Part shown: piece after piece, positions 7,466 to 30,828 of the stretch | Layout: each line of letters opens with the position of its first letter | Numbering within the stretch: position 1 is the stretch's first letter | IMG/VR virus record: IMGVR_UViG_3300027770_000166 | Coordinates: 1 to 33,325 of that record | Length of the DNA stretch: 33,325 nt | Direction: 5' to 3' (one strand) | Origin: a virus | Position numbers and translations under genes: made by a program | The notes under the pieces: generated by a model | The model's input: the letters and a program-made list of their open reading frames with translations, nothing else | Told to the model about the DNA's origin: nothing | The model's database searches: none

Positions 7466-7473
7466 TTTTTTCC

Positions 7474-8730: not shown

Positions 8731-8756
8731 GGGAATCCTGAAGTGAGTCTTGTCAA
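8731..8756 (-). promoter_or_regulatory. Late-promoter element upstream of lysis genes
   Basis: On the - strand, TTGACA (8756-8751), 12 bases ending CTTCA, then GGATTCCC (8738-8731). The same arrangement occurs at 24637-24661 and 29823-29848. It lies in the 76-bp gap between the 102-aa gene (which starts at 9073 and ends at 8765) and the 94-aa gene starting at 8688. There is no TATAAT at the normal spacing; GGATTCCY takes its place. Confidence 0.7.
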
Positions 8757-8764
8757 TCTATAGC

Positions 8765-9073
8765 TTAAAGATTGTATTGATTGTTTAGTCTTATAATTGC
8801 TATCTGCATAAACTTTTCTAGTCGGTCGTACGCCTGTTTTTTTAATGTTGGCGAGCAATCATTATAGAAATTGTCATTTATGGAAATGAAGTCGTTCAGC
8901 CTAAATCTAAACTTTATGCCATCAATAAAGACTTCAAAGTCATCCAATTGCCCCACGGGCGTATTGGATAAAGAATTTAAGGCCTGAGAGAAAGCCAAAG
9001 CCATCTTTTGTCTAAGATCAACGTTATTCTCTACAATTTCTTTGTACTTATTTTGTGCGATTGGTGTTGGCAT
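8765..9073 (-). CDS. Hypothetical protein, 102 aa
   Basis: Good ribosome site (AAGGGAATTTT before ATG). The protein has a helical N terminus, a central beta part (FEVFIDGIKFRFRL) and a helical C terminus. No family recognised. It sits downstream of the fibre genes and upstream of the lysis promoter, so it is expressed with the tail fibre block. It could be a fibre chaperone or a small virion protein. Confidence 0.6.
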   Translation of the reverse strand: MPTPIAQNKYKEIVENNVDLRQKMALAFSQALNSLSNTPVGQLDDFEVFIDGIKFRFRLNDFISINDNFYNDCSPTLKKQAYDRLEKFMQIAIIRLNNQYNL

Positions 9074-9083
9074 AAAATTCCCT

Positions 9084-9350
9084 TTAAGCGAATAGTTGAT
9101 TATTCATTGCTAATTTCATTAAACCCAGCCCTTGGTTGTAGTATTTAAGTTGGTCGGAATGGGACATACCAGAAATTTGTTCATCCGTTAGTGCCACTTT
9201 TACTTTTGAACCATCCCATAAAATGTCTTGATGGTTTGTGGAAGGGGCCCCGATAGAAGATAAAGATGCCTCTAAATCATTAAAAAAGTTTAAAATTCTA
9301 TTTTGTCTTGTCCCTAGTTTTGCGTACTGAATATCTGTAAAACTTGACAT
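9084..9350 (-). CDS. Hypothetical protein, 88 aa
   Basis: Strong ribosome site (AGGAG before ATG). The soluble product starts MSSFTDIQYAKLGTRQNRIL, with a polar middle and a helical C terminus containing a Met-rich end. No family recognised. It lies between a very small acidic gene and the 102-aa gene in the fibre block; a fibre-associated or assembly role is likely by position only. Confidence 0.6.
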   Translation of the reverse strand: MSSFTDIQYAKLGTRQNRILNFFNDLEASLSSIGAPSTNHQDILWDGSKVKVALTDEQISGMSHSDQLKYYNQGLGLMKLAMNNQLFA

Positions 9351-9351
9351 A

Positions 9352-9513
9352 TTAAACTCCTAAAATTTCTGTATTCGACTCAGTTGATAGTTCTGCACGA
9401 TACTCATCTCCAGAAGATCTCAGTTCTTCTAGGATAGAAGATAGGGAAGATTCTTCCACATCTTCTTGAATTAAAATCCACGCATCATTTTCTAATTCCC
9501 ATATTGTAATCAT
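9352..9513 (-). CDS. Very small acidic protein, 53 aa, after the tail fibre gene
   Basis: ATG at 9513, one base after the stop of the large fibre gene, reading 53 codons to TAA at 9352. The product starts MITIWELENDAWILIQED and is strongly acidic with a Ser/Glu-rich helical middle. It fits exactly between two genes. Small acidic proteins immediately after fibre genes are often assembly helpers, but nothing in the sequence proves this. Confidence 0.5.
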   Translation of the reverse strand: MITIWELENDAWILIQEDVEESSLSSILEELRSSGDEYRAELSTESNTEILGV

Positions 9514-9514
9514 A

Positions 9515-11509
9515 TTAATCATGCGCCTTTATCATTACATAACCAGCAGTAACACCAACACCAGCAGTTGATACTCGTGCTCTTACTGCTGCCGAGTTGA
9601 TAGTTGTAACTGTTAATTGTACTGTGCTACTCGCAACAGCCGTAAGTGGTGATCCTATGGAATACCATGTCGATCCAAAATCTTCACTACCTTCAAGTTG
9701 TAAAACTGGTGGAGTAGCGGCTGCCCCAGTATTAATTACTAATTGCAAAGCGTTTCCACAGTCCCGAGTTAATAGTATTGGAGTAGTGGAATTTAGAGTG
9801 GTAAGTGAAATAGTTCTATCTATTAATTGTCTTACTGGCAAAGCAGGGTAGGAAGATTGAAGGCGGTTTATACTTCGAGTAAAAGAAGGAGTGGTTCCGC
9901 CCACGGTTTGAACATACCTTACTCTGTTCCCCATAAAAGGGATGTGGGGACTTCTGTAAATACCTGTTCCAGTAATTCTAGGAAAATCATAAACCTTGTA
10001 CCAGTTTATTCCGGTATCGTCTGATTCTTCAATGGTCACGTCTAAAGTTGGCGAAGTACCAGAAACAACCGTAACCGGAATGTTTACTTGGTAAGAAATT
10101 CCAAATGACGGAATGAATGTTGCTGATGTGGTTGTGGTTATTAGTGCAGCACTTACAACATCTGCAAAAATTGTAGGAATTGCTAAGTTGGCCGATGTTA
10201 TTGATGAGACAGTAGTAACTGTTCCCACGGAAGTCAGACTTCCCACCACAGTAGCGTTTAAGTTTGCAGCCGTAGCTTGAGAAATGTTTTGAATAGTTTG
10301 GGAAAATGAGTTTTGACTTAAACGAGTAAATGTTTGGACTGAACCACCCGTAAGAGTTGTTACAATGCGAAGTCTCAAGTATCTAAACTGAACGCTACCC
10401 GTCCACATCACTTTCGTAGCCGTTGCTGTAATTGCAGATACGCTGATTATTGGAACAGCTAATGCTTGGTTGTAGATCGGTACGGGCTCAAAGTTAACGT
10501 TATCGTTGGAACCTTCTACGATATATGTTCCAGCTGTTGCTGTACTTGCCACTTGGATACTAAATGATTTGTAGCCAGAACAATCCGTAGCCGATGGTCC
10601 TGATGTTGTAGAAAGAATATTGTTAACAATTGCAGTTTGGGCTGATTGTCCAGTGATAAAAAGATCAGACGCTGATATTGAAACAACTTGATCCGATGGC
10701 AAAACAACAGGGCTAGAACCGGACGATAGTTTTTGCCCGAGAGTTGGAGTTTTATTTGTTATACCAATTAAAGTTGCATCGACAGAAGTTGATATTGCAT
10801 TTCCAGAAGTTTGAAGCGCGGACGTAGAAAAATCTTTTGCATTTAATGTGGTTAATTTTCCATCAACAGAAGTCAATGAAGCGTTGCCAGATGTCTGAAG
10901 TGCTGATATTGAGGCACCTGTTGGAAGTGGTAGTGATGTTGCGCTTACTGGTTGTGATGCAGGAAAATTATCAACTGAAACTGTACCAGCTACACCAACA
11001 GACCCGTTTACGGTAATAGGTCCAGATTGACTGCAATCAACGATTAGCTCATTGTTCACGTTCATGGCAGGGGCACTTAATACGCCGCCGTTTAATACTG
11101 CAATACTTAGAGATTGATTTTCAAATGGGCTTGGTAGGACTGAATTTAGCGTCCCTCCGTATGCGCTTGAAGCTAAGTGAACATTGGGTGAAGTTATTCC
11201 GCTCACAATATCAATCGAGCTTGATTCCTCTTGGTCGTAAATCACGCTAAGAATATCAGCATCAGACATTCCAGCGGCGCTACAATTGAAGTTAAGATTT
11301 AAAGTGTAAAAACCTATCGAACCAATGAACGAACCGCTGATAGGTGAGCTAGGCCCCCCTCCGGTTGAGTAAATCATGATTTGATTTATTGACACGTTAA
11401 TGACTGCAAGCAATCTCTTGGGGTCAAAGTCTGGAAAATTATTTGAGAAATCAATTTGATTTGACCCGACTGAGAGAGAAAATTGATTTGTTGGCAGCAT
11501 TATTTTCAT
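9515..11509 (-). CDS. Large beta-rich tail fibre or receptor-binding structural protein
   Basis: 664 aa, rich in Ser, Thr, Val and Gly with few charges, typical of tail fibres and adhesins. The middle (about 200-260) contains a repeated LQTSGNA...SVD module. The C-terminal 370 residues hold three related beta-sandwich-like units, each with an E(G/E)S-(N/E)D motif followed by an aromatic or Trp: VEGSNDNVNF, IEESDDTGINW and LEGSEDFGSTW. The unit repeats suggest stacked surface domains. The N terminus probably attaches to the fibre or baseplate made by the upstream genes. Confidence 0.7.
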   Translation of the reverse strand: MKIMLPTNQFSLSVGSNQIDFSNNFPDFDPKRLLAVINVSINQIMIYSTGGGPSSPISGSFIGSIGFYTLNLNFNCSAAGMSDADILSVIYDQEESSSIDIVSGITSPNVHLASSAYGGTLNSVLPSPFENQSLSIAVLNGGVLSAPAMNVNNELIVDCSQSGPITVNGSVGVAGTVSVDNFPASQPVSATSLPLPTGASISALQTSGNASLTSVDGKLTTLNAKDFSTSALQTSGNAISTSVDATLIGITNKTPTLGQKLSSGSSPVVLPSDQVVSISASDLFITGQSAQTAIVNNILSTTSGPSATDCSGYKSFSIQVASTATAGTYIVEGSNDNVNFEPVPIYNQALAVPIISVSAITATATKVMWTGSVQFRYLRLRIVTTLTGGSVQTFTRLSQNSFSQTIQNISQATAANLNATVVGSLTSVGTVTTVSSITSANLAIPTIFADVVSAALITTTTSATFIPSFGISYQVNIPVTVVSGTSPTLDVTIEESDDTGINWYKVYDFPRITGTGIYRSPHIPFMGNRVRYVQTVGGTTPSFTRSINRLQSSYPALPVRQLIDRTISLTTLNSTTPILLTRDCGNALQLVINTGAAATPPVLQLEGSEDFGSTWYSIGSPLTAVASSTVQLTVTTINSAAVRARVSTAGVGVTAGYVMIKAHD

Positions 11510-11518
11510 ATTTAAAAC

Positions 11519-12448
11519 CTATCCAAAAATGAGGGCGTTTATTATTGTTCTAGTCACGGTTGCATAATCAACGTCCGCGATTGCTTGCGAGGTTGTTGAG
11601 CCGTCGCCTTTGATTAATCCGTTTATGTCGGTGCCCGTACTTGAAGCATAGACATAATTTGGCCCGTCGTTTCCGTCGATTCCATTTGTCCCATTCGTTC
11701 CATTTGTCCCGTTCGTTCCATTGATTCCATTTGTACCGTTTGTGCCATTTGTCCCATTGGTGCCATTCGCTCCATGAAGAGAAGCAAGCCAAGCGGACTC
11801 AGTGCCAACAAAACCATTTCCAACCGCGACTAAATAGGCCGAAATTCCATTCTCGCCGGTTGCTCCGGTTGCTCCGGTGTTTCCAATATCGCCTTTCGCT
11901 GCTAGTAAATCCCAGTAAGGTGAAGCGCCCGGAGCGTACCCCGAAGAGGTGTAAACGTTTCGATACCAGAGTTGGCCCTGATAAGTGACAATATCCCCAA
12001 CGGTATAAATCAACCCACCGTTATACTCGCCGAGATAATTCCAAAGAGCGTTTGCGCCATTCGTTCCGTCGTCTCCGGCTTCGCCTTGAATCCCTTGGTC
12101 GCCAGTCTCGCCTTGGATTCCTTGAATACCTTGCGCCCCAGTGTTTCCAGTGTCACCCTTGACGCCTTGAATACCTTGCGCCCCTTGGCTTCCTGTAGCT
12201 CCCTGTAGACCGATTTCACCTTGGATACCTTGGATTCCTTGGATGCCTTGAATCCCCTGCGCTCCGGTCGCGCCCGTGGCGCCCGTTAATCCAATATTAC
12301 CTTGAGGCCCTTGGATTCCCTGAATCCCTTGAACTCCTGAGGTCATGATTTCAATCGTTGTATTCTCGACAATCGTCGTCACCTCAACACTCGTTTGAGT
12401 CTCAACGACTTCGACATTGATTGGTGATTCGATTACCTCAATAATCAT
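11519..12448 (-). CDS. Collagen-like tail fibre protein with carbohydrate-binding-like insert
   Basis: 309 aa. Residues 38-133 are Gly-X-Y repeats (GIQ, GAT, GET). Residues 135-182 form a Trp/Tyr-rich module (GDIVTYQGQLWYR ... SPYWDLLA) like chitin-binding CBM5/12 domains. Short Gly-X-Y follows, then the segment SAYLVAVGNGFVGTESAWL common in phage fibres. Next come Gly-Thr-Asn repeats (226-262) and a terminal GLIKGDGSTTSQAI segment found in many fibre proteins. Gly-X-Y repeats form trimeric rods. The ATG overlaps the stop of the upstream gene. The repeats are long at DNA level and could change length. Confidence 0.85.
   Translation of the reverse strand: MIIEVIESPINVEVVETQTSVEVTTIVENTTIEIMTSGVQGIQGIQGPQGNIGLTGATGATGAQGIQGIQGIQGIQGEIGLQGATGSQGAQGIQGVKGDTGNTGAQGIQGIQGETGDQGIQGEAGDDGTNGANALWNYLGEYNGGLIYTVGDIVTYQGQLWYRNVYTSSGYAPGASPYWDLLAAKGDIGNTGATGATGENGISAYLVAVGNGFVGTESAWLASLHGANGTNGTNGTNGTNGINGTNGTNGTNGTNGIDGNDGPNYVYASSTGTDINGLIKGDGSTTSQAIADVDYATVTRTIINALIFG
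11663..11773 (-). repeat. Gly-Thr-Asn coding 9-bp minisatellite
   Basis: About twelve imperfect 9-bp units coding Gly-Thr-Asn and variants (Gly-Ile-Asn, Gly-Ile-Asp, Gly-Asn-Asp). Unit length is a multiple of three, so gain or loss of units would keep the frame and alter rod length. Third-base changes between units show the array is not freshly expanded. Confidence 0.75.
12050..12337 (-). repeat. Gly-X-Y (GIQ/GAT) coding repeat array
   Basis: About 32 consecutive Gly-X-Y triplets, many coded as the 9-bp unit GGNATHCAR. Several stretches carry four or more near-identical GIQ units in a row. They form the first collagen-like rod of the fibre protein. Confidence 0.75.
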
Positions 12449-12789
12449 TTTGTTATCTCAGGATCAAAGATTAATGAGCCTTGTAAAATTCTTTTTTTGT
12501 TTGATCCGCTATTCATTTCAACGTCATAAAACAAGGGAAGCTTGACCGATGTTTTGCGCTTAGAGGAAACGGCGCTCGACATTATCATTTCCACTTGCCC
12601 GAGATTAGTGACTTGATTTTTTACGTTGAAAGTAAACTCAAGAAATGTTTCGGTCAATGAAGTGGCGCGAACTTGTCCCGTAAAAGTAAAGCCCGTCAAA
12701 TTAATCGGAGCGCCTAGCTCGTCTTTAATTGTAAGTAAGCGAAAAAAGTCTTCGCCCTGTTTTATTTCAAGGTCTAATTTATTGCTCAT
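12445..12789 (-). CDS. Fibre-connecting or upper baseplate-like protein, 114 aa
   Basis: A beta-rich protein starting MSNKLDLEIKQGEDF with a strand pattern (LTGFTFTGQVRAT ... FDPEI) similar to the Ig-like N-terminal adaptor of phage baseplate upper proteins and fibre attachment modules. It directly precedes, and overlaps by ATGA, the collagen-like fibre gene, so it likely anchors that fibre. A family match is suspected but not certain. Confidence 0.55.
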   Translation of the reverse strand: MSNKLDLEIKQGEDFFRLLTIKDELGAPINLTGFTFTGQVRATSLTETFLEFTFNVKNQVTNLGQVEMIMSSAVSSKRKTSVKLPLFYDVEMNSGSNKKRILQGSLIFDPEITK

Positions 12790-12804
12790 TGAAAACCTTT
12801 TTAA

Positions 12805-12954
12805 TTAAAACTTTTTTAAAAACTTTCCGGCTTTTTCCATTTGCTTAGATTCCCAACACGGTGAAGATTTAAATGATTCAGCTTTGCAGACTTCATAGTT
12901 TCTTGTTCCGTTATGGGCCGAAGTAACAAGAAAAACAAATAGGACTAAAAACAT
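12805..12954 (-). CDS. Very small secreted protein, 49 aa, with signal peptide
   Basis: ATG at 12954 with AAGGAG five bases upstream. The N terminus (MFLVLFVFLVTSA) is a short signal peptide with a likely cleavage after Ala13. The mature product is about 36 residues, with two cysteines (C23 and C33) that could form a disulfide, and it is Lys-rich at the end. It sits among tail fibre genes. A periplasmic small protein from a late gene could affect lysis or exclude superinfecting phage; this is inference. No family recognised. Confidence 0.55.
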   Translation of the reverse strand: MFLVLFVFLVTSAHNGTRNYEVCKAESFKSSPCWESKQMEKAGKFLKKF

Positions 12955-12963
12955 AAATTCTCC

Positions 12964-13302
12964 TTAACAAGGTTTAATCATCAAGCCTTTAGAAAAATAA
13001 ACAATTGGTTCAATGGTTTTGTATGCTTCGTATGTCACAACTTCGTTCTGAGTGACGATAGTTTCACCCAATTCATTAACGCTTGATTCTTCTGTGATTG
13101 TTTTCACTTCGTTTTTTAGAATTAGGTTTTTGTTATAATCTAACTCGTAAAACTTGGGTGATTCATAAATTTCTACATAGAAATTAAGGTCAATTAAATC
13201 TTTATTTAGCCTTAAAGCTTTTGCAGTTGCCTCGATAAAAATATCGCCTTCTGAGTTAGCCCAAAAATCTTTTAAAATATTATCTAAAAATAAACAAAAC
13301 AT
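12964..13302 (-). CDS. Hypothetical protein, 112 aa, in fibre block
   Basis: GAGG five bases before the ATG. The N-terminal half is mixed helical/aromatic (MFCLFLDNILKDFW) and the C-terminal half beta-like and acidic (ITEESSVNELGETIVTQNEV). No recognised family. The first residues are hydrophobic but contain Asp and Asn, so a true membrane span is doubtful. Probably a minor fibre or fibre-assembly component by position. Confidence 0.6.
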   Translation of the reverse strand: MFCLFLDNILKDFWANSEGDIFIEATAKALRLNKDLIDLNFYVEIYESPKFYELDYNKNLILKNEVKTITEESSVNELGETIVTQNEVVTYEAYKTIEPIVYFSKGLMIKPC

Positions 13303-13311
13303 AAAAACCTC

Positions 13312-13713
13312 TTAAGAAATGACGTTATATTCTTGAACTATGATTCTAAAAGTACCAGTGCCAGAAATAACTGTACCAGTAGGCACCCATACTTGAGAAA
13401 TTACGGTTTTTTGGTCGATAGCGGTTGCAAATGCTGCAAACGTAGTCGCAAAAGTTCCGGACGTTGTGATTATACCTTGCCCAGAAGTAGCTCCCCCTGC
13501 AGTTTGCACGTTAAAAGCGTCCACTACTGAACTTCCGAGGACATCGTTTTGAGTTCCTTGTAATGCTGTTACCCCACCGATCGTAAAAGTTGCTGAACCG
13601 ATTAAATTAACAGTCAGTAGGGCGTACTTTCCTGCCGGAATAGTATAGGAAGCAGTTTTAACAGATACACTAGATGGGTTATTATTAAACGGAATGACAA
13701 AAGGTGCAGACAT
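13312..13713 (-). CDS. Beta-rich structural protein, 133 aa
   Basis: Low-charge Ser/Thr/Gly/Val-rich protein (starts MSAPFVIPFNNNP; TIPAGKYALLTV and SATFTIGGV strands), typical of small phage surface or fibre-tip proteins. Good ribosome site (GGGG before ATG). It lies directly after the 171-aa tail protein. No family assigned; a minor tail or fibre role is likely. Confidence 0.6.
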   Translation of the reverse strand: MSAPFVIPFNNNPSSVSVKTASYTIPAGKYALLTVNLIGSATFTIGGVTALQGTQNDVLGSSVVDAFNVQTAGGATSGQGIITTSGTFATTFAAFATAIDQKTVISQVWVPTGTVISGTGTFRIIVQEYNVIS

Positions 13714-13715
13714 AT

Positions 13716-14231
13716 TTATTCCCCGTAAACTGTGATTAAAAATTTACTCATAACGCCACTTGTAGGCATTTGAGTTATATCAAAGCGCAAAAGATTCCCA
13801 ACAACCATGGATGTTTTTGTAGCATCAAACACTTGGTTTGTACTTTTTGCATAGTCAGCAATTGAGGCGTAAACAAGTGATGGTTTAGTAGTGAAAATTG
13901 TCGTGAATGATGTTGAATTTAAGTCAGTGGTTGATTTTTTTATGTCAACCTCAAACGTTCCAGTCAAAGAACCTTTTTCAAAAATCTGAACATAGGCGCT
14001 AGTTATTGTGAAGTTATCGTTCGATTCCCAATAGTACAAACCTGTTCCAGTTGAAAATTCTGAACCATTTAAAACAAAGAATTTAATGATAGGAATTTTT
14101 GAAGATGAAGATTCGATTGCATTTAGGCGAGTTTCCAAATCATCAAAATTATTTTTAACCTTGTCCCATAGTTCTTTTTTAATCGCTGAACCCACGGCGA
14201 TGGCAAGGCTTGAAATTGAACTAAACGCCAT
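13716..14231 (-). CDS. Tail fibre or tail-associated protein, 171 aa
   Basis: The N terminus (MAFSSISSLAIAVGSAIKKELWDKVKNNFDDLETRLNAIE, given here in parts: residues 1-17 hydrophobic, then a helical linker ending in NAIE near residue 40) is a pattern common at the start of phage tail fibres. A beta-rich domain follows (about 50-171). It begins two bases after the tail-tip gene and probably mounts on it. Confidence 0.55.
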   Translation of the reverse strand: MAFSSISSLAIAVGSAIKKELWDKVKNNFDDLETRLNAIESSSSKIPIIKFFVLNGSEFSTGTGLYYWESNDNFTITSAYVQIFEKGSLTGTFEVDIKKSTTDLNSTSFTTIFTTKPSLVYASIADYAKSTNQVFDATKTSMVVGNLLRFDITQMPTSGVMSKFLITVYGE

Positions 14232-14233
14232 GA

Positions 14234-16777
14234 TTAACCTATTATGTTACACGCCAAAGCGTCTTCGCTTGCGGCGTCCGGTGTTAAAGTGTCATTGTCT
14301 ACAATGTATCCAAAAAGGACTTTGTCATCATTTTTCGCAAGGGCGAAATCTTGGGCGGTATTTGGGCAAATTGCCGGAACTCGGTTAAAAATATTCCCAA
14401 GGTCGGAAATCGTGACCTCAACTTCGGTTTGGCTTTTCTTGATTCCGGTCACAATCCCAATTTTTCGGCGGTCATTCCCACCAAAACGCTTAAATAATCG
14501 GTCAAAATTGATAAAAATCTTGTCATTGACGGCGTTTAGATAGAAAAGCATTTTACCTTTAAGGGTGACGGTCGTTGAGGCAAGCGAGAAGAAAAGCGCC
14601 AGACGTTGAGCAATAATTTCGGCCTTATCGGATTCAAATAAATAGAGTGTTCTTTCTAAGGTATTTTTAAGCCCCACGTATTTATCCACAAAACCCGAGT
14701 TATAAGTCACGGTTTCAAAAGTATCTTGGCCGTTTTGCGTATCCGTAAACGGGCGATAAGAACAAATCACATTATTATAAATCTCGGTCTTTGACTGAGT
14801 GTCCCAAGAAAGAACGTCATCGTCTTTTAGGACTTTGGTTGTGTCGGGCTTTTCAGCATTGAGGATACTGTAGGAAATGCTTAGTGAACTATCCCCGTAA
14901 AGGCTTCCAAAGACACTTTCGTTTATGCGAGTAATGGAGTCACGAATGGAGGGCGCCTCGCTTCCAATCGTGTCAGGAATAACCAAGGAAACAACATAGT
15001 CGCAATCGGCCTTAGCTTTCTCAAAAGAGGGCGCATTGATTGACGAGAAGCCAGCGTCATTAACGACTAAGTGCTTAACTACGTCCGAAGGTGTTTTAAG
15101 CCACGCGCCCGAAGCGTCTTCAAAGCCGAGGCAATTGCACGTTATTAGTGAATCGTCTTGGATGTAATCAACCGCTTTAATAAGTGCGGTCGTGGTCGCC
15201 GTCGTTCCCGTGTAGTTTGATCTAAGGATTATACTTTGCTCTTTGACGTCAAGAATTTCGTGCCAAGTGTTCTCGCCTGAAATAATAGAGTTTTTTCTTA
15301 TCCAATCGCGCGGCTTTAAGATCGAACGAAAATCAACCGTCGCAGTCGTTGAGAGTGTTGAGGTTGAACTTGTGAAAGTTATACTTACACCGGCAAGCTT
15401 TTCTTGCGTGATATTAAATTCGGCCAACGGTTCAAGTGTGATAATAGCTTCGGCGAGATTGATAAAAGTCCAATCCCTATTAAAAATAAGCTCACGATTA
15501 CCGAAGAACACGTTTTGAATAGCGAGCTTTATGAATGTATCCCCTGCGCTTGGAGTGGGCGCAATGGCGTTTTGCGTGACAATTTCGCTTCCTGAGATCC
15601 TTCGCACCGTGACGAGGTCGCCGTTTATCTCGACTTGATCGCCGGCGAAAATGTCCTCAGTTGAGGCCACTATAAAACGGTTGTTGGCCTTGACGGTTGT
15701 GATTGTGGTCGTCGGTTGCCTTAAGGCGTGTCCGGCCACGTGCCATGACCTATTGTAAAAACGGTAAGGGATTTTTGGGTTGTTACGAATCGCCTGACTA
15801 ATGATGTTTGTCTCGGCGACCTTATTCAAGACTAGTGCCGTATTACTAGAAATAGATTCCACTCCGAACTTGTAAACGACTGATTCTACTGTGAAAATTA
15901 ATTCATCCCCAACGCTTACTTGGCTTAAGAATAAAGTGCCCACGCCTGCGAGTGTATTGGTTGCGATTAAGACCGTAGCCGTACCAGTAAGAGGAAATGA
16001 TTCTAAAATATTACTTACTCCGGCGGTCTTGACTTGCTTTACTTGCCCGTAAATTCGGCGCTTAGGTGTATCAATTAATGAGTCTTGAATCGTCCCATCA
16101 AGGGCGGTGAAGACGCCGAGATTGACCTTGTCCCGAAGCTTAAAAACGAAATCCTTGACGTTAAACTTCACGCTAGAAATTCCGTAATCCTTGGAATCAA
16201 TCACGCCCTCGAAGACTCTCCGCGCTTCCGTGACTGGCGTTTCAGTGAACCATGAATAGAACGAGACGGTTTTGTTTTCAAAAATAAACGTGTCAAAAAT
16301 CTCATCAAAAAAACCGGTGTTAATAAAATCAATTGAGCTTGATGACTCTAAGACCACGCCCGTCGATTCCGAGTCAAGTTGTTGGCCCACGCTTCCGATG
16401 CTTGTCAAATAAGGAAGCCACTCGACGACCTCGCCACTAGCTAAATCATAAGGAAGATTTAAGGGGGCGTTAGAAAAGAAAAGCTTATAGGTGAAACTCA
16501 TTTCAAGCGTCTTAGGATTAACCCCACCAACGCAAAACAAGTAAATGGTTTTATTTTTTATGTCATGGTAATAAGTTCCGGACACGACCGCGCCAAGGCT
16601 TGAGACTTTTGTCATTGCTTGGCCTGAGACTTTAACGGATTCCACGAAATGATTGACGGAACGCTTATAGATTGAGCCAGAGTGAAGCGTGAAAAGTTTA
16701 ACTAAATGCTCGGCTTGACACGTTACCAGAGTGACCTTTTCACTTCTCGTTAATAGCGCCGCCTCTTCAAATGTCAC
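14234..16777 (-). CDS. Large tail tip or baseplate hub protein
   Basis: 847 aa, the largest protein in the genome. It follows tape measure, distal tail protein and a small membrane protein, the position of the tip/hub protein (J-, Tal- or Dit-associated) in siphoviruses. It is mixed beta-rich, with several small all-beta stretches. No catalytic lysin motif was noticed. The C terminus ends ACNIIG. The start overlaps the preceding small gene by ATGA. Position and size, rather than a clear domain, support the call. Confidence 0.6.
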   Translation of the reverse strand: MTFEEAALLTRSEKVTLVTCQAEHLVKLFTLHSGSIYKRSVNHFVESVKVSGQAMTKVSSLGAVVSGTYYHDIKNKTIYLFCVGGVNPKTLEMSFTYKLFFSNAPLNLPYDLASGEVVEWLPYLTSIGSVGQQLDSESTGVVLESSSSIDFINTGFFDEIFDTFIFENKTVSFYSWFTETPVTEARRVFEGVIDSKDYGISSVKFNVKDFVFKLRDKVNLGVFTALDGTIQDSLIDTPKRRIYGQVKQVKTAGVSNILESFPLTGTATVLIATNTLAGVGTLFLSQVSVGDELIFTVESVVYKFGVESISSNTALVLNKVAETNIISQAIRNNPKIPYRFYNRSWHVAGHALRQPTTTITTVKANNRFIVASTEDIFAGDQVEINGDLVTVRRISGSEIVTQNAIAPTPSAGDTFIKLAIQNVFFGNRELIFNRDWTFINLAEAIITLEPLAEFNITQEKLAGVSITFTSSTSTLSTTATVDFRSILKPRDWIRKNSIISGENTWHEILDVKEQSIILRSNYTGTTATTTALIKAVDYIQDDSLITCNCLGFEDASGAWLKTPSDVVKHLVVNDAGFSSINAPSFEKAKADCDYVVSLVIPDTIGSEAPSIRDSITRINESVFGSLYGDSSLSISYSILNAEKPDTTKVLKDDDVLSWDTQSKTEIYNNVICSYRPFTDTQNGQDTFETVTYNSGFVDKYVGLKNTLERTLYLFESDKAEIIAQRLALFFSLASTTVTLKGKMLFYLNAVNDKIFINFDRLFKRFGGNDRRKIGIVTGIKKSQTEVEVTISDLGNIFNRVPAICPNTAQDFALAKNDDKVLFGYIVDNDTLTPDAASEDALACNIIG

Positions 16778-20578: not shown

Positions 20579-20598
20579 TTCATTTCCCCCTCAGAAAA

Positions 20599-21774: not shown

Positions 21775-22214
21775 TATTTAACCCCTTTTCTGTAAGTTAT
21801 TGGATATTTAAAAATGATTGAAACTGATTTTTGATTTTGATTTATTTGCGGCTCACTAAATGAAGGCTCGCCCACAACCAAGATATTTCCAGAGCGGCGA
21901 TAACTTATTTCTCGCATGATTAACTCGGCGTCGGAATAGATTGATTCTATGGCGTCCCGAATAGACTGATCGGTTGAGCCTTTTTCGATGAACTCTTTGA
22001 CTAGCTCAATCTCAAAGTCATGCTCAACGGTAATAAAACGAGTCACGCCTTTAACACTTGAGGCGCCAGTCGGACGAATGGCATAAATGTAAGCGTTCTT
22101 AATGCCGTCATTCTTCGTCAAATCGTAAAAGTTTCGTGAAGGGTAAATCATAGGGGTCGCGGTTTTAATCGCGTCCTCGATCATTTTAAGCACTTCTGAG
22201 ACTGCACTACTCAC
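21774..22214 (-). CDS. Tail terminator/completion protein
   Basis: 146 aa, GTG start with AAGGAT upstream. Mixed alpha/beta: an N-terminal helix (EVLKMIEDAIKTATP), then strands with HDFEIELV and SVSIIFKYPITYRKG near the end. This suits tail terminator proteins that cap the tube and bind the head connector. Position, just before the tube protein, supports the call. Confidence 0.65.
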   Translation of the reverse strand: MSSAVSEVLKMIEDAIKTATPMIYPSRNFYDLTKNDGIKNAYIYAIRPTGASSVKGVTRFITVEHDFEIELVKEFIEKGSTDQSIRDAIESIYSDAELIMREISYRRSGNILVVGEPSFSEPQINQNQKSVSIIFKYPITYRKGVK

Positions 22215-23040: not shown

Positions 23041-23056
23041 TCTTCACCTTAAAAAT

Positions 23057-23093
23057 TCCCCAATGGTTAGTTTTTTAAGCTAACCACTGAGGG
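23057..23093 (-). terminator. Intrinsic terminator after the coat protein gene
   Basis: On the - strand a stem of about 13 bp forms from CCTCAGTGGTTAG (with two wobble pairs) and its partner CTAACCATTGGGG, followed by AATTTTT. The core TGGTTAG/CTAACCA is perfect. It lies 50-90 bases after the coat stop and before the adaptor gene, and would lower transcription past the coat gene. Confidence 0.7.
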
Positions 23094-23105
23094 AAAACAA
23101 AAAAA

Positions 23106-23140
23106 CAGGGGCGACTCAATCCATGAGCAACCCCCGATTT
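23106..23140. terminator. Bidirectional hairpin between coat and adaptor genes
   Basis: GGGG and CTCA pair with TGAG and CCCC around a 3x3 internal loop, with a T run on one side and an A run on the other, so it could act on either strand. With the neighbouring hairpin it forms a double stop behind the coat gene. Confidence 0.5.
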
Positions 23141-23145
23141 TTTAC

Positions 23146-23985
23146 TTAAGAATTGTTATCTTTGATGATTAGGCGAGAAAAACCGCCAGAAAGGTAAGAT
23201 GCGCCAACTCCAAAAAGCTGATCCATTACGCATAATACACCTTGAGTACCAAAGTTTAGGTCGGCTTGTTCGGCGTAAGCTGGGGCCATTTGGAAACCGT
23301 AAACCACTGACTCTTTTGCTGCAAGGTAGTATTGATTTGCAGAAAGACCAAGGCGAACGATAACAGGAATCCCGTAAAGCTTTTCGATCATGCCGTCTTT
23401 GATTAAAGATGAGCCGTAAGATTCAGCTTTATAAACGTCAGGATTTGCAAGAATATCGGCTTCGCACTCCGTTGAGATAACCCAAACAGCGTTCTTTAAT
23501 TTACCTTTATTATCAAGGTATTTTTTACGCATTTCCACTGCGATTGCCGGTGTAAACACTAGGCCAACAGTAGTCATTGCTGTTCCATAAGTCTCGAGAG
23601 CCGCGAGAAGTTTTGATTCAAAAAAATCAACGTGGTCTTCGGCTGCGATTTTAGCACACTCAAGTTTCCAGTTAAGAGTTGACTGGATAGCACTCGCGCC
23701 GTCGATTCCATATTTGATTTCTGCAAGTTGATCTAGGTTCAATGATTCAACCGTAACGGCCGGAGCTTGACGGTCAGTTGACCCACCATGAGCACGGTTA
23801 TTAACGGTAAATTTTCCGATTGCAGGAAATGAAATTTTATCCACGCCCTTTACACTGAATGTTGAAATGTCGCGGAATACTGAACCCAAAACAGCTTCTT
23901 CTCTCAACACGGCCTGCGCCATTGCTGAAATATGCTCGCCAATTGTCCCAGTCATTCCTGATTTTTTGATTTCTACGTCGGCCAT
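23146..23985 (-). CDS. Major capsid protein, P22-like/HK97-fold
   Basis: 279 aa following the scaffold. Features include a helical N-terminal arm (MTGTIGEHISAMAQAVLREE), a spine-like FPAIGKFTVNN strand, the helix AAEDHVDFFESKLL, and the C-terminal LFGVGASYLSGGFSRLIIK. These match coat proteins with HK97 fold of the P22 gp5 type. The start ATG has GGAG upstream. High expression is suggested by the scaffold/coat promoter upstream and terminators directly behind. Confidence 0.85.
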   Translation of the reverse strand: MADVEIKKSGMTGTIGEHISAMAQAVLREEAVLGSVFRDISTFSVKGVDKISFPAIGKFTVNNRAHGGSTDRQAPAVTVESLNLDQLAEIKYGIDGASAIQSTLNWKLECAKIAAEDHVDFFESKLLAALETYGTAMTTVGLVFTPAIAVEMRKKYLDNKGKLKNAVWVISTECEADILANPDVYKAESYGSSLIKDGMIEKLYGIPVIVRLGLSANQYYLAAKESVVYGFQMAPAYAEQADLNFGTQGVLCVMDQLFGVGASYLSGGFSRLIIKDNNS

Positions 23986-24007
23986 TTTCTACTCCATGTT
24001 TTTTTGG

Positions 24008-24613
24008 TTAATTACCAAATGTTTGTTTTGCTATTTGCATAATTTCAGCACTTGATTTGCCACTAAAATCAGACTTGTTTGAGACTGATTTATAATTGGG
24101 CTTTGTGCTATCCACGCCCACTTGCTGCGTGTTCTTGTTAAGGTAAGGGTATTTTTCCAAAACAAGATTGACGGCGTCTTTGATTACGTCTTCATTTACC
24201 GTCATGTTTTCGGGGTCTATTCCAGTTTTCACTGAATCCCTGAATTCTCTTCGGTTGATAATGTCGTCGTGGTTATGGGCATCCTTAGCGTATTTTGTGA
24301 CGGCACTGCGAATTGATTGATCGAGCGTTTTTTCACGAAGCTTTTTATAGTCTTCGAGAACTTTTTCACGCTGCTTTCTTTCATAGTCGACTTGCGCCTT
24401 AGCGTCACCGCTAGATTCAACCTTTAACCTTTCGGCCTCATCAAACTTTGATTTAAAATCGGCGGCCTGATCTTTCCATTTCTTCGACTGGTCTAGTAAT
24501 CGATTATTGGTTGATTCAAGTTGTTCGATTCTTTTCAACACTTCGCTAACATCAACCGTAGAGCGTTCGCCGTCCGGCTTTGAGCCTTCGCCCTGTTTGT
24601 TATCGTCACTCAT
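24008..24613 (-). CDS. Scaffolding protein
   Basis: 201 aa from the ATG at 24613 (GGAGG eight bases upstream), not the longer form from 24661, because the late promoter lies inside that extra stretch. Highly charged, with a long coiled coil (VLKRIEQLESTNNRLL ... DYERKQREKVLEDYKKL, in parts), a DxxG-poor helical centre and a short Ser/Lys-rich C-terminal helix. Located immediately before the coat gene. Such proteins guide procapsid assembly and leave the shell afterwards. Confidence 0.8.
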   Translation of the reverse strand: MSDDNKQGEGSKPDGERSTVDVSEVLKRIEQLESTNNRLLDQSKKWKDQAADFKSKFDEAERLKVESSGDAKAQVDYERKQREKVLEDYKKLREKTLDQSIRSAVTKYAKDAHNHDDIINRREFRDSVKTGIDPENMTVNEDVIKDAVNLVLEKYPYLNKNTQQVGVDSTKPNYKSVSNKSDFSGKSSAEIMQIAKQTFGN

Positions 24614-24636
24614 TTGTCGTCCTCCACGATTAAACA

Positions 24637-24661
24637 GGAATCCCGAAAAATGTTGTGTCAA
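24637..24661 (-). promoter_or_regulatory. Late-promoter element upstream of scaffold and coat
   Basis: On the - strand, TTGACA (24661-24656), 12 bases ending TTTCG, then GGATTCC (24643-24637). A start about 35 bases from the -35 would be near 24626, just before the GGAGG ribosome site of the scaffold. One of three matching copies in the genome. Confidence 0.7.
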
Positions 24662-24671
24662 CCGTCAATTT

Positions 24672-25133
24672 CTAGATGTTGTACTTGATAGCGTCTTTAA
24701 GGGCGTTGATGATTTTCTGAAATAATCGAAGCGTGAACTCTTCACCCGTACCAGTGGGAAGTAATCGGCGTTTGACCTTTTGTTTTCCTACCCCAATGTC
24801 GTTGTGATATTCGGCTTTCTCGTCGGTGAAGGTGACAACGGGGTTTTCTTTTGAAATGTCGATCTTGAGAGACTTATGAAGATCCCCGGTGAGCTTAAGG
24901 TTTACAGGCCGAACTTTCTTGCCAACGCCTAAGCCATCTCTTTTAATTTGTTTCTTATATGATTCAGAATATTCGGGTTGACGGTTTTTTGACTCTTTGA
25001 CGGGGCTTATCCCTTTGTCTAAAAGGTTTAAAAGTTCAGGGCCAAAGCCTTCGGCAATATTCTTTTTGAAATCCTTGCCGATCTTTTCAATAAACTCCGG
25101 CTCTTTGAACCGCTTAAAGAATTTGGCGCCCAT
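24672..25133 (-). CDS. HK97 gp10/virion-morphogenesis-like protein, 153 aa (copy 1)
   Basis: The pattern LKLTGDLHKSLKIDI, a strand VVTFTDEKAEYHND, then RRLLPTG and a terminal helix matches phage neck or tail completion proteins (LTGxLxxSI ... A.YH ... PaR.fl). The product of the next gene has the same landmarks (LGGDLLDSL ... AYGHITG ... RKLIPNG), so the two are diverged paralogues. Normally such proteins are coded after the coat; here both lie between portal and scaffold. AAGGG precedes the ATG. Confidence 0.6.
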   Translation of the reverse strand: MGAKFFKRFKEPEFIEKIGKDFKKNIAEGFGPELLNLLDKGISPVKESKNRQPEYSESYKKQIKRDGLGVGKKVRPVNLKLTGDLHKSLKIDISKENPVVTFTDEKAEYHNDIGVGKQKVKRRLLPTGTGEEFTLRLFQKIINALKDAIKYNI

Positions 25134-25147
25134 AGATTCCCTTTAAG

Positions 25148-25648
25148 TTATGCCGGAGCCGTGTCAGCGGCCGCACTTCCCGAACCTTCAAAGTCGTCAA
25201 TTATCATTTGAATCCCGTCTTGAATGTCCTGGATAAACTTTTCTTTGCCGTTCGGGATGAGCTTTCTCGGTGCAACTTTACCGTCAAGCCACGGATGACC
25301 CTTAAAGCCGGTTATATGGCCGTAGGCCTTAATGGCTTGCCCTTCTTCCCAAGTCCCAATCTTGACCCCATAGGCGTCGGCTTCATAGGTTAAAGAATCA
25401 AGCAAGTCGCCCCCAAGTTCCATATTGGGCGTTCGGTCGCCATCTTTTTGGGCGTCGGCGTATTTGGTTGTGAGCTTGGATAAATCCCCCACGCCCTCAA
25501 CCGGTGACTGACCATCGGCCAATAGATCAAGCATTGAGGTTAAAACGTAGTCACCAATTTCGTTCATTAGGTCAGTACGCTCGGAGTCGTCCAGATAATC
25601 CGGAAGCTCTGGGCGAATCTCTTTCCAGACCTCAGTTTTTGAAATCAT
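25148..25648 (-). CDS. HK97 gp10/virion-morphogenesis-like protein, 166 aa (copy 2)
   Basis: The ATG overlaps the portal stop (TAATG). Helical N terminus, then MELGGDLLDSLTYE, VKIGTWEEGQAIKAYGHITG and APRKLIPNG, the landmarks of the gpS/HK97-gp10 type. Ala/Ser-rich C-terminal tail. Paired with the upstream-type 153-aa protein; they may form one neck ring with two chains or act at head and tail sides. Confidence 0.6.
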   Translation of the reverse strand: MISKTEVWKEIRPELPDYLDDSERTDLMNEIGDYVLTSMLDLLADGQSPVEGVGDLSKLTTKYADAQKDGDRTPNMELGGDLLDSLTYEADAYGVKIGTWEEGQAIKAYGHITGFKGHPWLDGKVAPRKLIPNGKEKFIQDIQDGIQMIIDDFEGSGSAAADTAPA

Positions 25649-27186
25649 TAGAATCCGTTATTAAAAGGCTTTACGACTGGCGCAACAACCGGCAAATCAT
25701 TCGGTACAATCTTTCGCGCTTGCTCCTCAGTCATACCAAATGAACTGATAAGAATATTAACCGCCGACTCAATAGGCATTTGCTTCGTGGCGGCCGCAAC
25801 AACGACCTCGACAAGTGAACTCACTTGGGCGCCATTGAAGACATTTCCGGCGTCTAGTGCTTTAAGCGAGGCGCGGTCAAAGACGATTTTCTTGGCCTCT
25901 TCTTCGGTCAAGTTAGGGTCAACATCTTGGAGCAATTGCCACTCCTCCCATAATCCCAACGCTTTCTTTTTAGCAAGGTTATCAAGCTTCTCGGAGTCAC
26001 TTGAAAGGATTTTAGGACGGGCGAATTTAACGACTAGCTTTTTAGATTTAAAAGTAAAGTTCCCATCTCGAAGGTTCATGCCTTGGACGATTTCATAAAT
26101 CTCGCCTTCAATGCGCGTGAAGACGTCTTGATTGTTTTCAATAATGTCGGAAACGTCGGCCCCTGCCAAGGCGCGATCAAAGCCTGAACTAAACTTTTCA
26201 CCGCCCTTGATTGTGTTGGCCGTCATGCCATGCTCATCTAAAATCATCATCATGTAGGTCAGGATTGACTCTTTATGACCATCTAGGTTTGGACTTGGTG
26301 AAATATATTCGGCAGTCGATGGGGGTGCGCCGTCTTTGGTTTCTTGCTCTAGTTTCATCGCCGTCATTAGGCCCGAAACAATCCAATCTATTTTTTGAGT
26401 TTTGGGATATTTCAAAACGAGTTGACCGATTTGCATATTGCCCGACGTCATATAGATCGAGAGATTCGTGTTCAGTTCTACCGTTTGTCTTGGAAGTGAA
26501 GACTGATAAGGGTAGGCACCTTGAGAATCGTCCGGAACGTAAATAAAAGGAATAAGGCCATAAGGATTGACCATATCAGGATTGCCATTAATTTCGACAA
26601 AAGAAAATGCTTTGTAATCGCGAGTTTTGATTTTAACGTGGCTCTCAAGGCTCCAAAGTGTCCATACATAATAATCGCCCTCTTTTCCGGTTGGGAATGA
26701 CCACGCATAAATGTTTCCATTGAAGTCTCGGTGAACGTTAAACTCATAAGGGGCAAGCGCCCAAAAGTTGTAAGCGTCTTCACTCCCACCGTCTTCAAGT
26801 TCAAAGCGTTCACGAACCACGCCCACGGCGCAGTATTTATGGCGGTTAAAAAGTAAATCAACCGCCTTCATAGTGTCGTTAAACTTGTTATCATCCAAGA
26901 TTTGAGAGTAAAGCTTTGACTCGGCTTCTTGGTCGAGCGATCTAATCGGCGGCCTTAAGTATGATTTTGATTTCTTGTCGGTAATCTTTTTATGAATATT
27001 GTAGTCTGCTACATTGTAGCATGACCACGTTTTCGGATACATTTCTTTGAGTTTTTGCTCAACAAAGAGGTGTAATTGCCCCTCATAAATCATGAGATTC
27101 TCAAGCTCTTTTTGGCGTCTATTCTTTTCAAAGTCGCTATTGATTTCGGTTAAAATGGACGGAATAGTTGAGGCGTCTAAAATCAT
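25648..27186 (-). CDS. Portal protein
   Basis: 512 aa directly after terminase large subunit. The length, alpha/beta mixture with a Tyr/Trp-rich clip and stem region, and a long C-terminal helical part (VDPNLTEEEAKKIVFDRASL) fit portal proteins of the Gp6/HK97 type. AAGGGA precedes the ATG. It forms the dodecameric DNA channel at one capsid vertex and binds TerL and connectors. Confidence 0.82.
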   Translation of the reverse strand: MILDASTIPSILTEINSDFEKNRRQKELENLMIYEGQLHLFVEQKLKEMYPKTWSCYNVADYNIHKKITDKKSKSYLRPPIRSLDQEAESKLYSQILDDNKFNDTMKAVDLLFNRHKYCAVGVVRERFELEDGGSEDAYNFWALAPYEFNVHRDFNGNIYAWSFPTGKEGDYYVWTLWSLESHVKIKTRDYKAFSFVEINGNPDMVNPYGLIPFIYVPDDSQGAYPYQSSLPRQTVELNTNLSIYMTSGNMQIGQLVLKYPKTQKIDWIVSGLMTAMKLEQETKDGAPPSTAEYISPSPNLDGHKESILTYMMMILDEHGMTANTIKGGEKFSSGFDRALAGADVSDIIENNQDVFTRIEGEIYEIVQGMNLRDGNFTFKSKKLVVKFARPKILSSDSEKLDNLAKKKALGLWEEWQLLQDVDPNLTEEEAKKIVFDRASLKALDAGNVFNGAQVSSLVEVVVAAATKQMPIESAVNILISSFGMTEEQARKIVPNDLPVVAPVVKPFNNGF

Positions 27187-27198
27187 TTTAATTATCCC

Positions 27199-28554
27199 TT
27201 AATAGAATGTTGCGACTCCGACGGCGGCGGTTTCATACTCTTCGACGTAGTCAACGGCGTAGCCAATTGCGGTCGTGCAATGTTGCCACGGGCATAAAGG
27301 GCCATCATCTTCAATCAATCCGCTTCCCTTTTTAAGCTTCGTCAATCTAAAACCTTCGTCCGCGTCGTAAGCCTCTGAGTAAATATAAAAGCCCACTTGA
27401 TTGTTAGCATTTAAAAACTTGGCGTTCATCCTGTTATGCCTTCGTCTAATCGGTGGGTTCGACCTTGGGACGTCAATTGAGAATTCTAAGGTTGAGCCGT
27501 CTTTTCTTTTATAGTGGCCTAAAAAGTCTTCGATAATGTCCCAATCGGATTGGTTGGAACGAGTGTCCGAATGTCTTCCGGTGGCATCCCCGTAAATCTT
27601 AAAGGTCGTTTTGTTTTCAAAGAGACCGTCATCGGCCATTTCATCAAGGATTTGGTGCGTGTTGGATTTGAATAAGAGATAGGTCTTTTTAATATGCCAT
27701 GCGTTGTCATAGAATTGACCCACGAAGGCCGACATGGGCTTTCCTTCGCCTATATTAAAGTCGTGCCCAATCGCTATCGGATACTTAGGATTAAACTCAA
27801 AAACCTCGCCTCGCTTGAAATTGCGATCACTGGCGTAATTGTAATAAATAGAATCCCCTGCAATGGACAACCATTCCCCCATTAATTTTCTGCGCGCCAT
27901 TAACGGGCTTAAATCTCGCTTAAGATTTTCTAAGTACCATTTCGGGAGAAACGGGTTTTGTTCAGTGATTGAGTAGAAAACCTTCTTATTTGGATGCTCA
28001 ACGTCTTCAATGAAATATTTATGAAGCCAATGGCTCGGCTCGTCCGGATTGCACCGCGCTTGAATTCGGTTTTTATAAACCCCTGCGCGACCTACCCGAA
28101 GCTTGAGTGCTTGATAAACTTCTTTGGGCATTTCGTTGGCCTCTTCAATATCAAGATGAGAAAGCGCCAGAGATTGAAACTTGTTTAAGTCGCCGTCGTC
28201 ATAGGAATCACCAAAGATTTCCGAGCCGTTTTTAAAAGTTATTTTCATGTCGGTTTTATGAATGGACTCAATCGCTTCGGGAATGTCGGCCATGTGTTGC
28301 AATAGCTCGACCCACGAGGTTCGCTTTAAGTCTTTAAGCGCCCGACGCACCATTAAGGCGCGTGAGTATGGTTGGCGTACCATGTCCATGACGAGCATGT
28401 GAATGTGGTCAATAGTCTTAGCTGAACCTACGCCGCCAGAATAAAATAATTCTAGAGCGCCGGAGTGATAATTAAACTCTCTCTCGAAAACCGTCGCGTC
28501 CCATTGCCACTTAATAGCTCTAGGGTCAAAGTCTTGAAAAAGAGGGGTTGTCAT
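27199..28554 (-). CDS. terL: Terminase large subunit
   Basis: 451 aa packaging motor and nuclease. The ATPase domain has Walker A GGVGSAKT (40-47), Walker B LDIEEANE (134-141) and the coupling region ARCNPDEPSHWLHKYF (166-181). The nuclease domain starts near IAIGHDFNIGEGKP (Asp265), with a second acidic residue at KIYGDATGR (Asp323). The start overlaps the small subunit stop. Whether packaging is headful or cos-type cannot be told, though a circularly permuted contig fits headful. Confidence 0.92.
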   Translation of the reverse strand: MTTPLFQDFDPRAIKWQWDATVFEREFNYHSGALELFYSGGVGSAKTIDHIHMLVMDMVRQPYSRALMVRRALKDLKRTSWVELLQHMADIPEAIESIHKTDMKITFKNGSEIFGDSYDDGDLNKFQSLALSHLDIEEANEMPKEVYQALKLRVGRAGVYKNRIQARCNPDEPSHWLHKYFIEDVEHPNKKVFYSITEQNPFLPKWYLENLKRDLSPLMARRKLMGEWLSIAGDSIYYNYASDRNFKRGEVFEFNPKYPIAIGHDFNIGEGKPMSAFVGQFYDNAWHIKKTYLLFKSNTHQILDEMADDGLFENKTTFKIYGDATGRHSDTRSNQSDWDIIEDFLGHYKRKDGSTLEFSIDVPRSNPPIRRRHNRMNAKFLNANNQVGFYIYSEAYDADEGFRLTKLKKGSGLIEDDGPLCPWQHCTTAIGYAVDYVEEYETAAVGVATFY

Positions 28555-28904
28555 TTATCAGGATAAGCGACTTGAAAAACAATGGCGCCGCCCTCTTCGC
28601 TTGATGCAACCTCGACACTTCTAAGTTCAGGGTGAAGGTATTTGCAAGCGTCACGCGCCGACTTTTGCCTAAGCTCGGGGCTTATTGTTAGCTCGTCAAT
28701 GGTTGTGGATTCCGCGCCCTTGCCGATTACTTTGGTTTGATACTCAGAATATCCAAGCGCCGCAAAGTCACCCATGGCGAAAAGGCAAAGCACTTCAAAC
28801 GGCTTGCATCCTAGTCGCTCTGCAATGTCTTTGGCTTCCTGACTCGCCTTATTTAAAGCGCCCTTTGGTCGTCCATTTGGGTTATTAGTCTGGCCCTTTT
28901 CCAT
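28551..28904 (-). CDS. terS: Terminase small subunit
   Basis: 117 aa. The start NNPNGRPKGALNK is typical of many terminase small subunits. A helix and ARDACKYLHPELRSVE follow near the C terminus. It recognises phage DNA and feeds TerL. AGGGGCG is upstream of the ATG, and the stop of the preceding gene abuts it (TAAATG). Confidence 0.82.
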   Translation of the reverse strand: MEKGQTNNPNGRPKGALNKASQEAKDIAERLGCKPFEVLCLFAMGDFAALGYSEYQTKVIGKGAESTTIDELTISPELRQKSARDACKYLHPELRSVEVASSEEGGAIVFQVAYPDK

Positions 28905-29168
28905 TTAACGCGCCCCTGTTTTGCTTTGTTCAATACAAAGCGCCGCCTTTACTTCCGCTAGGCTTTTCTCAATGCGATTGATCTTTTCTTTAATGCTATT
29001 GATCGACCTATCATCTCGATAAACGCTTTTGACCTCTTTCATAGCGACCGGCTTGTTTACGCTTCTAAACTTGTTATAACAGCTTAAACAGTAGGCCTGG
29101 TCGCCGTAGTGTTCTCTATCCATTTGTCTTGTATTGTGTGACTTGCACTCGGGGCATGGTCTAGACAT
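28905..29168 (-). CDS. Small zinc-ribbon protein with C-terminal coiled coil
   Basis: 87 aa. Cys5-x2-Cys8 (CPEC) and Cys27-x2-Cys30 (CLSC) form a zinc ribbon. The last 45 residues (SINSIKEKINRIEKSLAEV) form a coiled coil. GGAG lies upstream. Immediately before the terminase genes, where phages often place DNA-end processing or packaging helpers; no HNH motif is present. A DNA-binding role is likely, the target unknown. Confidence 0.6.
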   Translation of the reverse strand: MSRPCPECKSHNTRQMDREHYGDQAYCLSCYNKFRSVNKPVAMKEVKSVYRDDRSINSIKEKINRIEKSLAEVKAALCIEQSKTGAR

Positions 29169-29169
29169 A

Positions 29170-29442
29170 TTATTTTACTCCGCATTTGAAAGAGTCGATT
29201 ACTTGCATCAAATAAGAATCTTCCTTTTTTTCTCTTTGCCACTCTTCAAGAAAGTATTCTTTATAGTCGCAAATATCTGGCGCGTTTTTTTGAATCTCTG
29301 AGAATGTTTTCCTGGCGTCTTGCTCAGTATTTATCACCTGGATGCAAGCGCAGTTTTCCCATTTCTCGCCTTCGCTTATCATCCAAATTTTCTTACCAAT
29401 GGGTAGACCGATTAGGCTTTGCGCCATTAATTTCTGACTCAT
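29170..29442 (-). CDS. Hypothetical protein, 90 aa
   Basis: The ATG at 29442 overlaps the RusA stop (GTATGA) and has GAGG upstream, so it is preferred over a longer form from 29535. Contains CAC and IC cysteines and a helical, acidic C-terminal half (FLEEWQREKKEDSYLM). No recognised family. It is translated between RusA and the zinc-ribbon gene at the head of the late operon. Confidence 0.6.
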   Translation of the reverse strand: MSQKLMAQSLIGLPIGKKIWMISEGEKWENCACIQVINTEQDARKTFSEIQKNAPDICDYKEYFLEEWQREKKEDSYLMQVIDSFKCGVK

Positions 29443-29813
29443 ACTTCCTCGACTGTAATGAAAATTTTTTTCTCGTCTTTCATTTTTATTTTGGTTTGAT
29501 CTATTGTGTAGTTTGCATGGTTTAGGAATTGCCAAGAATCGTCTTTAATGACTCCGCTCAAAGTAAGCCCGTCAATGTAGGGCTTAAGCATTGAATAGCA
29601 ATTATCTAAATCCATAAAAGAGGGGGAATACCTATGCGCCGAAATTTTAAAAGATGTTAAGGGGTCTTTAGGCCCTCGACCGCGAACGAGATGAATAATC
29701 TCATTTTTTACTTTCTTGAAAATGCGGGCCTTGGTGTACTTGGATACGCCCAAGATCCTATTTGAATCGGTAGGCGCTATTGAAACTTCAAGCGTGATAG
29801 AATATTTCCCCAT
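29439..29813 (-). CDS. rusA: RusA-family Holliday junction resolvase
   Basis: 124 aa from the ATG at 29813. Residues 61-92 hold the RusA signature: Asp68-Leu-Asp70-Asn, Lys77, Asp81 and Asp91-Asp92, matching E. coli RusA Asp70, Asp72, Lys76 and Asp91. It resolves branched DNA, clearing junctions from recombination products before packaging. A TTG start at 29840 is possible, but it lies inside the late-promoter element, which makes 29813 more likely. No good ribosome site precedes it; the promoter may give a very short leader. Confidence 0.88.
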   Translation of the reverse strand: MGKYSITLEVSIAPTDSNRILGVSKYTKARIFKKVKNEIIHLVRGRGPKDPLTSFKISAHRYSPSFMDLDNCYSMLKPYIDGLTLSGVIKDDSWQFLNHANYTIDQTKIKMKDEKKIFITVEEV

Positions 29814-29822
29814 TCTTACAAC

Positions 29823-29848
29823 GGGAATCCTGAAACGCAATTTGTCAA
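29823..29848 (-). promoter_or_regulatory. Late-promoter element upstream of RusA/terminase operon
   Basis: On the - strand, TTGACA (29848-29843), 12 bases ending TTTCA, then GGATTCCC (29830-29823). At normal spacing transcription would begin near 29814, next to the RusA ATG. The gene just upstream codes a ribbon-helix-helix protein, which may control it. First of three copies in the leftward arm. Confidence 0.72.
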
Positions 29849-30783: not shown

Positions 30784-30789
30784 AATTTC

Positions 30790-30817: not shown

Positions 30818-30828
30818 GCTTGGCTTTT

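Follow-up and report, generated by a model that had tools for sequence, protein, structure and literature searches.

The late genes of this phage raise the question of what kind of promoter is formed by a perfect TTGACA hexamer that is followed, 12 bp further on, by GGATTCC instead of a normal -10, and of which protein would read such a site. The window, that is the whole stretch of DNA analysed, comprises all 33,325 bases of virus record IMGVR_UViG_3300027770_000166, with a G+C content of 41.3%. Positions 1-47 and 33279-33325 of the window form a 47-base overlap of the record ends with one mismatch, so that the record is probably the assembly of a complete, circular genome. The plus strand carries the early genes for RecT, an exonuclease, a helicase, an integrase and methyltransferases, and the minus strand carries those for a ribbon-helix-helix (RHH) protein, RusA, terminase, portal, scaffold, head, tail and lysis proteins. 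The phage is temperate, judged by its integrase and its cI-like repressor.

The host is probably a predatory Bdellovibrio-type bacterium of the phylum Bdellovibrionota, an assignment based on the genomes in which relatives of two phage proteins occur. Of 369 Bdellovibrionota genomes, 4 contain relatives of the portal protein, compared to 0/274 and 0/289 genomes of two other classes. Relatives of the RHH protein occur in 13 of 359 Bdellovibrionota genomes compared to a single, marginal one among 158 genomes and none among 157 elsewhere. A profile scan of genomes for the tail-tube protein gave no matches, and neither did a search for the portal protein among phage records.

The sequence TTGACA-N12-GGATTCC has exactly three exact matches in the window, all on the minus strand (Table 1). 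The earlier note on this DNA had described this three-copy repeat with coordinates that are off by at most one base, and its description of the surroundings is borne out as well: at all three sites GGATTCC is preceded by TTC[A/G] and followed by [C/T][G/T]TT, and the sites lie on the late-gene strand, where they precede the RusA/terminase, scaffold/coat and lysis blocks. Among the three window sites, 18 of 29 positions are invariant.

Table 1. Positions in the window of the element copies, the late gene blocks and the candidate regulators
Feature	Positions	Strand	Remarks
Element 1, TTGACA aattgcgtttca GGATTCC	29824..29848	-	between the RHH gene and RusA, head of the RusA/terminase block
Element 2, TTGACA caacatttttcg GGATTCC	24637..24661	-	ahead of scaffold and major head protein
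Element 3, TTGACA agactcacttca GGATTCC	8732..8756	-	ahead of the lysis block (8688..6509)
Late block 1: RusA resolvase, small genes, probable small terminase, large terminase	27199..29813	-	
Late block 2 start: scaffold protein and major head protein	23146..24613	-	
Scaffold gene	24008..24613	-	
Late block 3: 94-aa ORF (possible holin), possible lipoprotein, endolysin, metallophosphoesterase	6509..8688	-	
67-aa RHH protein	29859..30062	-	candidate activator of the earlier note
Cro/cI-type helix-turn-helix (HTH) repressor, 127 aa	30400..30783	-	alternative candidate for binding the box
87-aa protein with CX2C...CX2C zinc-ribbon-like N-terminus	28905..29168	-	between RusA and terminase

Since about 0.8 comparable triples are expected by chance in a random sequence of 33 kb, both strands counted, the repetition by itself is weak evidence, and it is this expectation anywhere in a sequence of this size that speaks for a chance or non-transcriptional repeat. 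The confinement of the copies to gaps on the gene strand is, however, not a matter of chance. All three elements contain 0 coding bases in a window of which the gaps between genes make up 8.7%, every copy lies in the gap at the head of a block, and the number of triples expected drops to 7e-5 when these are limited to gaps on the gene strand. An unbiased scan for gapped 13-letter words seen at least three times, with 40 shuffles as a control (mean of 0.9 such words per strand in the shuffled sequences), yields only the element, one set of coding words and one T-rich word after low-complexity, collagen-like and terminal-repeat words are removed. A second repeated word, TTTTGAA-N20-AAAGGCTT, sits in coding sequence and is taken as a coincidence.

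The strongest confirmation of the element is its conservation between phages, which also tells against a chance repeat, as the orthologous position is retained; such a repeat is the least probable of the readings weighed here, and an extremely unlikely one. The earlier note had proposed a motif search in related phages as a check and had named absence of the motif at equivalent places as a refutation. Three relatives (L010, L005 and L180) do retain the element at the position that corresponds to the scaffold site, so that the proposal withstands this check there; the comparison holds for the scaffold site only, the RusA and lysis sites not being covered by relatives. In L010, which is 86% identical in the tail tube, 25 of 25 bases at the scaffold site are the same, compared to 4 of the next 9. 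L005 (62% portal identity) was identified independently of the motif. Its TTGACA is as far from the scaffold ATG as that of the window, and its second box reads CGACTCG instead of GGATTCC; this box is the perfect palindrome AACGACTCGTT, TTGACA and GA-TC stand at identical spacing, and the chance of such a match is about 1e-4 to 6e-6. L180 (approximately 65% portal identity) likewise has CGACTCG at the same place ahead of the scaffold gene. As this phage was found by a search for TTGACA-N13-GANTC-N12-GGAGG, only the flanking C..G, the central base and the orthologous position are independent evidence there. L005 and L180 are identical at 13 of 13 positions in the two boxes, compared to 5 of 21 in the spacer and the sequence that follows the second box. 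The farther relatives L135, L136, L012 and L013 do not have the element, and a motif search of viral contigs returned matches only in this phage, in L010 and in L101, the last of which lies inside coding sequence and was set aside.

Across the three window sites and the three relatives, both TTGACA and the 12-bp gap to the second box are invariant. A sigma-70 -10 (A at -11, T at -7) at 16-18 bp is found at none of the sites, in agreement with the earlier claim that TATAAT is missing at this distance: at 17 bp the window sites have the hexamers CCCGTT, CCTGTT and CCCTTT and the relatives have CCAGTT, CGTTCT and CGCATT, and promoter scans of the two stretches holding the three window sites list none of these 17-bp window hexamers. 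A T is present at the -7 position in 6/6 sites, and nothing else downstream is kept between phages. A conserved -10 at 21-22 bp (TTTAAT, TTTTAT, TTGTAA) is ruled out, L010 having TTAGTC there. For element 1, the RusA ATG is at 29813, and with TTGACA as the -35 the transcription start at the usual distance would coincide with this ATG. RusA would then be leaderless from element 1, or be supplied by an upstream transcript, which may come from the RHH promoter.

The second box itself is a 7-bp odd (3-1-3) palindrome with a GANTC core in all six sites and two variants of the outer pair, GGATTCC or CGACTCG. With TTGACA as the -35, it spans -17 to -11 and occupies positions -12 and -11 of a normal -10. 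With a loop of a single base the 7-mer cannot fold into an RNA hairpin, which leaves a DNA-binding dimer as the natural reader. The palindrome thus points to DNA that is read by a dimeric protein and not to a novel -10 recognized by a sigma factor. The earlier proposal of a promoter class with an altered second box accordingly needs rewording: an intact -35 with a non-standard box is found, but the box is not a single fixed word and is better described as a GGATTCC/CGACTCG palindrome.

An alternative sigma factor had been offered in the earlier note as one explanation. GGATTCC would then be the -10 element of a sigma factor of phage or host, and the non-standard second box at fixed spacing speaks for this. 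A Bdellovibrio contig with related head genes (L129), derived from a metagenome-assembled genome, encodes a sigma-70-family factor with regions 2, 3 and 4 in its late block (L129:7051-7773), possibly a phage-encoded sigma factor for late genes; besides genes for phage terminase, portal and head proteins, the same contig has one for a Fis-type HTH protein (L129:8873-9106). However, no sigma-factor or RNA polymerase domains were found among the window proteins scanned, the structural proteins having been scanned in part, in a record that is apparently complete and circular. Furthermore, the box becomes CGACTCG in relatives with the palindrome retained, and the element has matches in 0 of 359 Bdellovibrionota genomes, which argues against a host sigma class, provided that the host phylum is right. 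The sigma-factor explanation is therefore considered improbable.

The other suggestion of the earlier note, that the 67-aa RHH protein encoded just upstream of element 1 reads the box, is not supported, as a sister phage, G006, keeps the RHH protein yet lacks the element. The G006 protein is 56% identical, is encoded near a related RusA and has the predicted DNA-facing strand residues (R-R-S-Y) unchanged, but no copy of the element is present in G006 even when two mismatches are allowed. Similarly, the Bdellovibrionota genomes that encode small RHH relatives are among those without the element. In G006 itself (contig L099), a simple count shows three CTTYGAC-RR-GTCGAAG-like palindromes instead, at 1120, 6153 and 10146, in the gaps ahead of RusA and two other blocks.

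The RHH protein is nevertheless probably regulatory. On its own it matches no RHH family, but it belongs, by sequence similarity, to a loose Bdellovibrionota family of which other members weakly match the RHH_1, RHH_7, ParG and 56B_RHH models. The best match to a solved structure is 56B (2kel; E 0.007), and a single-sequence AlphaFold prediction gave helices only and was uninformative. The RHH promoter regions of the two phages (window 30096-30166 and L099 243-310) share AAGATTTCTTAAGG and, inverted, TTCAACCTATTT, which are candidate operators. This sharing suggests that expression of the RHH gene is regulated, without a tie to the box. The regions upstream of chromosomal RHH relatives (L138-L151) have no operator in common with the box. 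GGTATA/TATACC occurs in 6 of 10 of these regions compared to a shuffle mean of 1.2, possibly reflecting autoregulation, although other AT-rich 6-mers are as frequent there.

Two further proteins of the phage come into consideration as readers, the Cro/cI-type repressor and, as a weak alternative candidate, the 87-aa zinc-ribbon-like protein. In a relative, the region between RusA and the small terminase encodes a Fis-like HTH protein (L134:477-734) and a protein of 262 aa that begins like a zinc ribbon and matches an HTH weakly (L134:1339-2127).

With moderate confidence, the three sites are best explained as co-regulated late promoters of the host's main RNA polymerase at which a dimeric regulator binds the palindrome, and the element is probably a late-gene switch. 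The host polymerase would be anchored at TTGACA as the -35, and a phage-encoded or phage-induced dimer would bind the palindrome, overlapping the -10. Once bound, the dimer would help the anchored polymerase to open the DNA, and the packaging, head and lysis genes would thereby be switched on together. We infer all of this scheme beyond the sequence anatomy of the element. That the palindrome differs between the two phage subgroups suggests a single regulator family with two specificities. A more specific version can be put forward tentatively, in which the sites would form a new class of phage late promoter: a perfect -35 holds the polymerase, the palindrome of a small phage dimer replaces the upstream half of the -10, and the dimer stands in for -10 recognition, with a switch between GGATTCC and CGACTCG from one subgroup to the other.

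The main rival is a repressor that covers a weak promoter. The palindrome would then be an operator, bound between -35 and -10 by a phage repressor such as the HTH protein, which would keep weak late promoters silent in the lysogen until relief of repression turns the late genes on. A dimer site overlapping -17 to -11 is in the classic place for a repressor, much as cI-type operators that overlap the -10 put a dimer palindrome between -35 and -10; the phage is temperate and encodes an integrase and a cI-like protein; and two palindrome variants would suit immunity-group specificity. However, a promoter under repression should retain a -10 that can be used, and here no such -10 is present or conserved. 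In addition, cI-type operators have copies in the immunity region, whereas GGATTCC is found 0 times in the repressor/early control region at 30784-30993, the nearest sequence there being a single CGACTCC. The operator reading is accordingly judged rather unlikely, and the regulator is more likely an activator than a repressor because no usable -10 is conserved. An activator at -17 to -11 alongside an intact -35 is unusual, and the leaderless RusA message implied by element 1 and the lack of the element in G006 and the farther relatives likewise count against the favoured scheme.

P1 Lpa, Mu Mor/C and P2 Ogr likewise rely on one small phage protein for the activation of several late or middle operons, but at sites of a different geometry. 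The late sites of phage P1 combine a good -10 with an inverted repeat centred near -22 and lack a -35, and the host protein SspA acts there beside the activator Lpa. In contrast, the present element has an intact -35 but no -10, and its palindrome would be centred near -14. The likeness lies in the single element placed ahead of several late operons, which in P1 is served by the small phage activator Lpa together with the host RNA polymerase (PMC8201110). The dimeric phage activator Mor of Mu works with host sigma-70 and binds 5-bp inverted repeats in a 16-bp element centred at -43.5 (PMC4390567). The Mu Mor/C sites are located upstream of or over the -35, whereas the palindrome here is downstream of an intact -35, and no Mor/C domain is found among the window proteins scanned. 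In P2, the small zinc-binding activator Ogr turns on several late operons from TGT-N12-ACA sites near -55. The present phage resembles P2 in having a small CX2C...CX2C protein among its late genes, and this 87-aa protein has no match to the Ogr family. The sites of P1 Lpa, Mu Mor/C and P2 Ogr either make up for a poor -35 or are located upstream of the -35.

The nearest mechanical analogue is GcrA of Alphaproteobacteria, a cofactor that recognizes GANTC in promoters in its methylated form and aids opening by acting on sigma region 2 (PMC3667746, PMC7403470). As in GcrA/CcrM promoters, GANTC is present in the promoter, between -35 and -7, at 6/6 sites, and the phage encodes a DNA methyltransferase somewhat similar to CcrM. 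The box could then be a methylation-read site, with its GANTC core recognized by a GcrA-like cofactor of sigma-70. However, no GcrA domain was found among the phage proteins scanned, the methyltransferase scores 77.9 bits against a CcrM cut-off of 830, and GANTC has no strong genome-wide bias (163 observed against 129 expected). Moreover, the GcrA/CcrM system is described for Alphaproteobacteria (PMC3667746), in which portal relatives number 0 of 289, and the host is probably not an alphaproteobacterium. A GcrA-like or methylation-read site is for these reasons very improbable.

Taking the sites as late promoters with a dimer at the palindrome, the arrangement would differ from that of the phage late activators compared, which usually make up for a missing -35. 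A perfect -35 with a regulator site where the -10 should begin is, if true, an uncommon arrangement. If this reading is true, the element would also give a first handle on how phages of predatory Bdellovibrionota control their late genes, a subject on which a search of open-access papers returned nothing.
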